Assembly: GCF_000420165.1 (NCBI RefSeq)
Contig: NZ_ATUK01000013.1
Coordinates: forward strand, 1 to 64,000
DNA length: 64,000 nucleotides
Reading direction: 5' to 3'
Source of the DNA: Thioalkalivibrio sp. AKL19
GTDB lineage: Bacteria > Pseudomonadota > Gammaproteobacteria > Ectothiorhodospirales > Ectothiorhodospiraceae
A program made the translations under genes and the position numbers. The notes beneath the pieces were generated by a model that was not told the origin of the DNA, ran no database searches, and saw nothing but the letters and a program-made list of their open reading frames with translations. Of this stretch, positions 22,022-22,663 are shown one piece after another (position 1 is the first letter of the stretch; the number at the start of each line of letters is the position of its first letter).

Positions 22022-22205
22022 CGGAATGAACTGGGCGTTGTCGGATGGAGGACCTAGTGCGACGCCGCGTCCTTGGGGCCGGCGTTTGCCGCGACGTTCT
22101 GGCACTACCCGTCGAACGGTCGTTTCTCGATCCCTCTGGCTCGGATCCCGAAACCGCAGAGGCCGGACATGCAAAAGGGGTCGCTCGGGCCCCCTTGCTT
22201 GAATC
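22022..22205. repeat. Diverged third unit of the tRNA-Ser-associated 184-bp repeat
   Basis: Aligns with the next unit at the same 184-bp offset from about 22081 on (CGCGACGTTCTGGCA, GTCGAAC, GACATGCAAAAGGGG and the hairpin ending CCCCCTTGCTTGAATC), but is mutated, and the tRNA 3'-end segment is no longer recognisable at its start. Its terminator-like hairpin is at 22173-22196. Confidence 0.65.
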
Positions 22206-22389
22206 TGGCGGAGAGGGAGGGATTACTCGGCACTTCGTGCCTCGCCCTCCGGGTCGTCGCCTGCGGCGACGTTCTGGCATCGCTGCGCGCTGCCAGTCGA
22301 ACCGTCATTTTCGATTCCTCGGGTTCGAATCCCTGGACCGCTGGGGCCAGACATGCAAAAGGGGCCGCTCGGGCCCCCTTGCTTGAATC
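22206..22389. repeat. 184-bp repeat unit B with tRNA-Ser 3' end, hairpin array and terminator
   Basis: Starts with TGGCGGAGAGGGAGGGATT, the exact reverse complement of the last 19 nt (with CCA) of both tRNA-Ser genes. Then come hairpins GGCAC/GTGCC (22229-22241), CGTCGC/GCGACG (22255-22271) and TGGCA/TGCCA (22275-22295), a T-arm-like GGGTTCGAATCCC, and a terminator-like stem at 22357-22380 oriented for minus-strand transcription. Confidence 0.9.
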
Positions 22390-22573
22390 TGGCGGAGAGG
22401 GAGGGATTACTCGGCACTTCGTGCCTCGCCCTCCGGGTCGTCGCCTGCGGCGACGTTCTGGCATCGCTGCGCGCTGCCAGTCGAACCGTCATTTTCGATT
22501 CCTCGGGTTCGAACCCCGAAACCGCCGGGGCCAGACATGCGAAAGGGGCCGCTCGGGCCCCTTTGCTAATGTT
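22390..22573. repeat. 184-bp repeat unit A, directly downstream (minus strand) of tRNA-Ser(CGA)
   Basis: Same 19-nt tRNA 3' end and hairpin array as unit B; the first ~127 bp are identical to unit B, the rest differs at a few positions around the T-arm-like segment and the terminator. On the minus strand the order is tRNA-Ser(CGA), terminator, array, tRNA 3' end, terminator, array, tRNA 3' end, terminator. Confidence 0.92.
22542..22565 (-). terminator. Terminator of tRNA-Ser(CGA), part of the repeat unit
   Basis: AAAGGGGCC / GGCCCCTTT stem 8 nt after the tRNA CCA on the minus strand. The equivalent stem in the next unit is at 22357-22380 and ends in TTTT. Confidence 0.75.
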
Positions 22574-22663
22574 TGGCGGAGAGGGAGGGATTCGAACCCT
22601 CGGTACTCGCGAGAGTACAACGGTTTTCGAGACCGCCCCGTTCGACCGCTCCGGCACCTCTCC
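22574..22663 (-). tRNA. tRNA-Ser(CGA)
   Basis: 90 nt including CCA. Acceptor GGAGAGG / CCTCTCC, class II variable arm (TACTCTCGCGAGTA), anticodon loop CTCGAAA (anticodon CGA), T arm GAGGGTTCGAATCCCTC. Its 3' terminal 19 nt recur in the downstream repeat units. Confidence 0.97.

Follow-up and report, generated by a model that had tools for sequence, protein, structure and literature searches.

The RtT array behind a serine tRNA of Thioalkalivibrio sp. AKL19 and a putatively mobile core found in tRNA genes and palindromic repeats

Introduction

The RtT RNA of Escherichia coli (Rfam family RF00391) stems from the tyrT locus, where repeats of ~178 bp each carry 19 nt of the upstream tRNA end, and is annotated in strain K-12 as the ncRNA rttR. 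The E. coli RNA is released with a length of ~170 nt, and so far it has been regarded as the by-product of a single tRNA operon. Insertion sequences of the IS200/IS605 type and the REPs mobilized by RAYT transposases insert by a mechanism that acts at a fixed short motif. CGTC-tagged REPs are reported, in what PMC3733652 says of them, to have no dedicated transposase, and the hairpin elements of sponges, as PMC2800124 describes them, have loops that are not conserved. In its treatment of the RtT family, Rossi 2016 located such RNAs ahead of the tRNA genes for Asn and Lys (PMC4986893).

Here we analyzed a window of 64,000 nt from Thioalkalivibrio sp. AKL19 (contig NZ_ATUK01000013.1, positions 1 to 64,000), in which a preliminary description had reported 184-bp tandem repeats downstream of a serine tRNA gene and had likened them to the tyrT locus. 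Positions are those of the window, and its features lie on the minus strand unless stated otherwise.

Results

An RtT array at a serine tRNA

The gene that precedes the array, tRNA-Ser(CGA), was called at 22574-22663 by ARAGORN and by the Rfam tRNA model. As reported, it is followed by two tandem units with an exact 184-bp period, unit 1 at 22390-22573 and unit 2 at 22206-22389, which are identical at 172 of 184 positions. Their uninterrupted identity does begin at the plus-strand start of the units, as had been noted, and extends over 124 bp, not ~127. Rfam RF00391 matched both units, at 22520-22390 (56.0 bits, E 3e-8) and 22336-22206 (55.8 bits, E 4e-8; cut-off 45 bits), and both fold more stably than shuffled sequences (z-scores of -3.4 and -3.3). 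The units are thus not a product of chance. The likeness to tyrT is real, as four cores were found at the K-12 tyrT locus with the core model R1 (described below) and the window units score above the Rfam cut-off. The suggestion of an independent, RtT-like RNA is refuted by the same scores, which establish homology to RtT and rule out a separate invention beside tRNA-Ser. We conclude that the window contains a genuine RtT array, located at a serine tRNA. The E. coli founder lies at tRNA-Tyr, a location that is not a criterion of the Rfam model; here the tRNA is tRNA-Ser(CGA).

Unit 1 is composed of a hairpin spacer, an inverted T-arm, the 5' half of a T-arm, the core and the tRNA 3' end. Its core of 72 nt, which contains several hairpins, occupies 22409-22480 (R1 match 22482-22406, 73.6 bits), and the identical 72-nt core of unit 2 occupies 22225-22296 (R1 match 22298-22222, 73.6 bits). 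By letter comparison, each unit closes with a copy of the last 19 nt of tRNA-Ser(CGA), at 22390-22408 and 22206-22224. The repeat layout known from tyrT is thus found with a length of 184 bp and 19 of 19 nt of the upstream tRNA end. The inverted T-arm-like segment of unit 1 (22505-22517) is 92% complementary to the tRNA T-arm at 22587-22599; that of unit 2 (22321-22334), 14 nt in length, is 100% complementary to 22586-22599. Terminator stems oriented with the tRNA had also been described. A clear stem is indeed present between tRNA and unit 1, a G+C-rich, terminator-like hairpin with a weak T-run (22564-22542). The terminator scan called it on the plus strand only, and detected no minus-strand terminator with a trailing T-run at the array.

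The diverged third unit was also recovered, at 22022-22205, in a decayed state. It agrees with a good unit at 101 of 184 positions, compared to a mean of 49.6 and a maximum of 67 in 200 shuffles, and its core (22049-22113) is matched by R1 below threshold (13.3 bits, E 0.22). By eye, it has no clear tRNA 3' end. Thus, of the tRNA ends ascribed to all three units, those in units 1 and 2 stand, and the three exact 19-mers at the locus are the tRNA itself and the two units.

Two other RNA families were noted in the window. A t44 RNA (RF00127) was matched on the plus strand at 48442-48545 with 68.1 bits. The sX4 sRNA model (RF02223) matched the tRNA-Ser genes of the window below its cut-off, at 22509-22677 and 21398-21515, suggesting that this family holds tRNA-Ser-like sequence.

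RtT units carry the end of the local tRNA

Among the 58 genomes of the near group, the genome of the window included, 32 contain RF00391 at E<=1e-3; in the class, a set that overlaps the near group, it was present in 66 of 369. The placement of 220 RtT matches from 91 genomes was surveyed, leaving out seven class matches in unfetched regions. A same-strand tRNA was present within 700 nt upstream of 175 matches; the other 45 include matches at contig ends, in chimeras that precede their tRNA (see below) and, in a few cases, in stretches without a tRNA. Allowing small shifts, 156 of these 175 units shared at least 16 of 19 nt with the end of the local tRNA, and 137 were exact over 17 nt. When each unit was compared with 40 other tRNA ends, the local end was closer in 118 cases, tied in 41 and worse in 16. 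The units that lack a match to the local end include T-loop chimeras, some of them called as tRNA-Gln by ARAGORN, and units with decayed ends.

The 156 matched units belong to tRNAs for Gln (71), Ser (68), Tyr (8), Arg (6), Glu (2) and Val (1), and RtT units were also found behind tRNA-Pro and, in one genome, behind a tmRNA. With 8 of 156 units, tRNA-Tyr is not a family-wide partner. Thus, the RtT family is not tied to tRNA-Tyr and takes the end of the local tRNA. A shared mechanism of tRNA-end duplication, raised earlier as the other possible origin of the array, is the nearer reading, as the loci of relatives each bear the end of their own tRNA. In the tmRNA case (L121 of genome G084, 1347-1705 and downstream, minus strand) the unit ends in the tmRNA's own 3' end. 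At two further loci, L141 and L147, RtT matches accompany tRNA 5' remnants only, where ARAGORN calls no tRNA; the 3' end of these units presumably resembles that of a lysine tRNA.

A covarying core downstream of an inverted tRNA segment

Upstream of the core, the units contain an inverted copy of the tRNA T-arm and acceptor strand whose strand is complementary to the tRNA end that closes the unit and can pair with it. In units from outside the genus the pairing is locus-specific, with a fraction of 0.75 of positions paired compared to 0.55 with the 3' strands of tRNAs for other amino acids (58 distinct pairs). Within the genus the effect is weak (0.64 vs 0.58 when swapped, 48 pairs). Of the 106 distinct pairs altogether, 15 are paired at 12 or 13 of the 13 positions; 15 of the 156 units, which have no recognizable anchor, were left out of this count.

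The core itself is ~70 nt long. When 106 cores were aligned with MAFFT alone, the consensus fold was poor, and the alignment was replaced by a set of 30 cores of similar length, from which R1 was built; its calibration was short, and its E-values are rough. The first and last hairpins of the core covary, with double changes in 11 of 16 predicted pairs. An additional covarying pair, outside R1, closes the last hairpin (C-G 89, T-A 39, T-G 6, C-A 1 and G-A 1; 136 of the 189 distinct cores were amenable to parsing). A stem formed by the direct flanks of the core was rejected, as these flanks paired no better than swapped ones (48 of 92); for this reason we do not claim that the core always lies in a loop. 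In many cores outside the genus the fourth hairpin has CAGGGATG-type loops, which, judged by eye, we take to recall CsrA-binding hairpins with their GGA loops. Loops of this type are absent from the window units.

The strong covariation would suit a conserved regulatory small RNA gene, whose RtT RNA is freed in tRNA processing and modulates the stringent response, with arrays raising the dose. The annotation of rtT as the ncRNA rttR in E. coli K-12 points in the same direction, as do the RT-PCR detection of two RtT-family RNAs given in Rossi 2016, the citation of Bosl & Kersten 1991 for the E. coli RNA in the same article (PMC4986893) and the appearance of RtT among the sRNAs detected in Pectobacterium in the account of PMC4710047. 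Against this reading, the partner tRNA differs from genome to genome, the core is dispersed in repeats without a tRNA, and a single orthologous locus has between 0 and 3 extra tRNA ends (see below). We consider a regulatory gene a rather doubtful explanation of the family, though one to be taken seriously.

Cores in the T-loops of tRNA copies

About 470 bp beyond unit 2, past a tRNA-Val on the opposite strand, the window contains a tRNA chimera that was absent from the preliminary description (21577-21735). The body of a tRNA-Ser(TGA) is opened in its T-loop by a 73-nt core (21662-21590; R1 match 21664-21589, 41.4 bits), after which come 13 nt from the 3' part of the tRNA (21589-21577) and no CCA. 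On reading the sequence, a hairpin at 21561-21576 takes the place of the tRNA CCA end. An intact tRNA-Ser(TGA) is located directly downstream (21417-21506, by ARAGORN). The chimera is preceded by a promoter-like site, TTGCCA-17-GACAAT, at 21746-21774, and a second copy of the site lies ahead of the intact tRNA (21517-21545) in a duplicated stretch that is identical at 67 of 68 positions; two such sites in the region compare with 0.1 expected from shuffles. The region 21417-21796 thus holds a 229-bp tandem duplication of the promoter-like site and tRNA-Ser(TGA), the first copy being the chimera and the second intact.

The analyzed loci were scanned for tRNA bodies that run via TTCGA (or GGTCTCGA) into a core. 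Eighteen were found, and 16 were left after two intact Gly and Thr tRNAs had been dropped, the chimera of the window among them. Note that the left junction is partly set by the search, while the right junction (ATC) comes from the matching intact tRNA. All 16 chimeras carry 68-81 inserted nt and have an intact, CCA-ending tRNA of the same type 108-374 nt downstream; within the analyzed stretches, none has one upstream (further chimeras aside). The 5' body is identical by position to the intact tRNA in 11 of the 16, and all diverge before the CCA. The tRNAs affected are Ser (four anticodons), Gln, Arg and Val. A Ser(GCT) copy in genome G298 (L105/L269) contains a second core in its D-loop besides that in the T-loop.

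The constant order, the 5' identity and the divergence before the CCA could suggest that the chimeras act as leaders, mimicking a tRNA and controlling the intact tRNA that follows, and in the window the promoter-like site has been kept. The sample is biased, however, the loci having been gathered via core or RtT matches, and a duplication that retained the promoter could by itself produce the chimera-first order. We regard a leader function as improbable.

Dispersed cores interrupt palindromic repeats at an exact site

Within the genome of the window, R1 gave 17 matches at E<=0.05. Four are located behind tRNAs (two in the window, one behind tRNA-Gln(CTG) and one behind tRNA-Ser(GCT)), one is the chimera, and the remaining 12 all lie within dispersed repeats that start with CGTCATTGCGAG or a near variant (CGTC-type repeats). 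The cores in these repeats score 24-36 bits, compared to 70-74 bits for three of the tRNA-linked units and 48 bits for the fourth. Rfam RtT made no call on eight dispersed loci (L238, L242, L217, L218, L259, L360, L254 and L256), among which are two of the 12. The 12 cores have the motifs AAAA-hairpin, GAAC, CCCG.AGGG, GAG and GAGTA in this order, with single departures in some copies. In the neighborhood of one core-bearing repeat (L242), a tandem glycine riboswitch pair (RF00504) was noted at 1062-1276 of that locus.

CGTC-type repeats consist of two inverted arms, with the core in one of them. The partner arm is present without a core in 11 of the 12 cases and was not found in the twelfth. 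Solo arms are common. Of 48 arms sorted by a rough pattern, 8 were filled, 20 were empty and 20 were of another form. The pattern overlooks some of the 12 filled arms, and by eye the arms of other form appear mostly empty. The junction is exact, the empty site reading GCGGCA^ACCTCC and the filled site GCGGCA-core-ACCTCC. Since filled and empty arms are different repeat copies, and not one site in two strains, deletion of the core could also have given rise to such pairs. By eye, the core junctions in repeat arms and tRNA copies show no target duplication, and the core alone has no terminal inverted repeats, both features of MITEs; the host repeats do have inverted arms. Of 93 distinct copies, 90 have GA or CA as their left flank, although R1 itself begins with an invariant GA, which favors such a result.

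In other genomes of the genus the core resides in a different dispersed palindrome, and further afield in several more. The dispersed family of genome G157 yielded no empty site, save one match with 3 mismatches that is probably due to chance. At E<=1e-4, cores were present in at least 165 of the 369 class genomes, the best 13 candidates per genome being scored. A draw from the phylum gave cores in at least 75 of 299 genomes on the basis of the best 16 candidates per genome; 47 of these are outside the class, 39 of them in one family. Some large genomes with more than 10,000 first-look candidates gave no core among the best 16 scored, and thus R1 does not respond to just any genome. Three observations suggest that the core is of a mobile type: exact junctions at filled and empty sites, no duplication of the target, and a large number of unrelated hosts.

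Repeated tRNA 3' ends might alternatively be the integrase attachment sites left by tRNA-integrating elements. The layout of intact tRNA, element and displaced tRNA 3' end has this form, and the T-loop junction would fit as well. An integrase gene between the tRNA and the displaced end, a feature of such elements, has no room in the 184-bp units of the window or in ~180-bp units generally, and the same core also targets sites outside tRNAs. Remnants of this kind are very improbable.

With regard to the mover of the core, Y1 transposase (PF01797) is present in all 10 genomes examined, yet no core lies within ~1.5 kb in any of the 30 loci analyzed out of 37 listed, ruling against RAYT/IS200 in this role. 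This null result fits the statement on CGTC repeats in PMC3733652 that they are without a dedicated transposase. Naville & Gautheret 2010 (PMC2965389) connected rtT with repeats near gatY, rbfA and cvpA. This link was likewise rejected; R1 found nothing in the three K-12 stretches at E<=1.

Copy number and inheritance of the array

Across 26 genomes of the genus, 0 to 3 extra tRNA ends were counted at the orthologous pdxH/tRNA-Ser(CGA) locus, some loci being cut by contig ends. One genome has a variant tRNA end at this locus, and the same variant is found in its unit. Conservation of the array in relatives had been proposed as a test, and its outcome is mixed: RtT is common among them, as given above for the near group, but the copy number varies between species.

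Mean core likeness within the genus was 0.885 for tandem neighbors, 0.813 for the same tRNA in other genomes, 0.757 for other tRNAs in the same genome and 0.723 for other tRNAs in other genomes. The higher value for the same tRNA across genomes than for different tRNAs within a genome suggests old and mostly vertical inheritance. At the Ser loci only, the order was reversed (0.855 in the same genome vs 0.830 for the same tRNA elsewhere). Together, these sequence comparisons speak for a mostly old inheritance, probably with some spread or conversion inside genomes.

Plain tandem duplication would require no mobile element: unequal crossing-over at the tRNA 3' end would copy a spacer that happens to hold hairpins. 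The exact 184-bp period, the identical 19-nt ends and the high likeness of tandem neighbors are all consistent with it. This process accounts for the growth of arrays, not for the spread of the core; the same core occurs with exact junctions in unrelated surroundings, and the filled and empty repeat arms are already a strain on the explanation. We therefore hold it to be unlikely, to much the same degree as the leader function of the chimeras.

Discussion

On balance, we lean toward the reading that RtT is a unit built around a putatively mobile core of ~70 nt that enters RA^A sites, with the palindromes of tRNA 3' ends as one of its niches. Each unit combines an inverted and a direct copy of the local tRNA 3' half, with the core placed where the direct copy has its T-loop (TTCGA^ATCC), and terminates at the CCA of the tRNA. 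The core would be a non-autonomous mobile element of small size, inserting at short RA^A sites and leaving no target duplication; it is found in tRNA T-loops, one D-loop, CGTC-type palindromic repeats and other dispersed repeats. Insertion into a single-copy tRNA gene would be lethal, so that the core would persist in tRNA copies that are redundant and in the palindromes of tRNA 3' ends that follow the gene. Recombination between identical tRNA ends may then have caused the tandem growth of the units. The tRNA-like stem ending in CCA probably allows tRNA-maturation enzymes to free the units, and this would spare the tRNA and release the RtT RNA. In addition to being mobile, the unit could act in regulation, as has been proposed for rtT of E. 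coli.

We see an even chance that a wider proposition holds, namely that the core is a structured, non-autonomous mobile element found widely in Pseudomonadota, which inserts exactly at RA^A, has repeatedly entered T-loops, a D-loop and palindromic repeats, and has seeded the RtT arrays. The rtT RNA of E. coli would then be a domesticated or trapped element, and the chimeras a new class of tRNA-derived RNA. In the literature searched, mainly open-access, we found no report of RtT as mobile or of cores in tRNA T-loops, nor of the wider pattern that joins local tRNA ends, T-loop chimeras and a dispersed core whose empty sites are exact. What has been taken for the by-product of a single operon appears here as a general family with a mobile-looking core. 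If true, this would account for an old oddity, the repetition of the tRNA end behind tyrT, and would mark the T-loops of tRNAs as places where a small bacterial element inserts. The core junctions, known exactly in both filled and empty form, lend themselves to testing, and the idea is also accessible in the laboratory strain E. coli K-12, whose tyrT locus itself carries four cores.

Small non-autonomous repeats and hairpin elements are already known kinds, and the core shares features with several of them. It resembles IS200/IS605 elements and RAYT-mobilized REPs, as PMC3733652 presents them, in its apparent insertion by a fixed short motif without target duplication, and differs from them in that no core lies beside any of the 30 transposase loci scanned. 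Like the double-hairpin and repetitive hairpin elements of mitochondria covered in PMC2800124, it forms small hairpin units, some of them inside structured-RNA genes. Those elements are mitochondrial, the likeness is one of description and not of sequence, and in contrast to the loops of the sponge elements the RtT core has conserved motifs, for example CCCG.AGGG and GAAC. With CGTC-tagged REPs and bacterial MITEs, as characterized in PMC3733652 and PMC2229807, it has in common that it is short, non-coding, dispersed and associated with palindromes; the host repeats are likened to CGTC REPs by their initial CGTC, not by assignment to a published family. Unlike in those systems, a second element, the RtT core, is found inside one repeat arm and separately in tRNA loops, with no target duplication. 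The closest relative is the tyrT RtT RNA of E. coli (RF00391; rttR), with which the window array shares the core, the tandem units of ~180 bp, the 19 nt of tRNA end and the place behind a tRNA. In contrast to tyrT, the window array is located at tRNA-Ser, the family stands behind Gln, Ser, Tyr, Arg, Glu, Val and Pro tRNAs and one tmRNA, and, beyond RtT as known from E. coli, its core is also dispersed.
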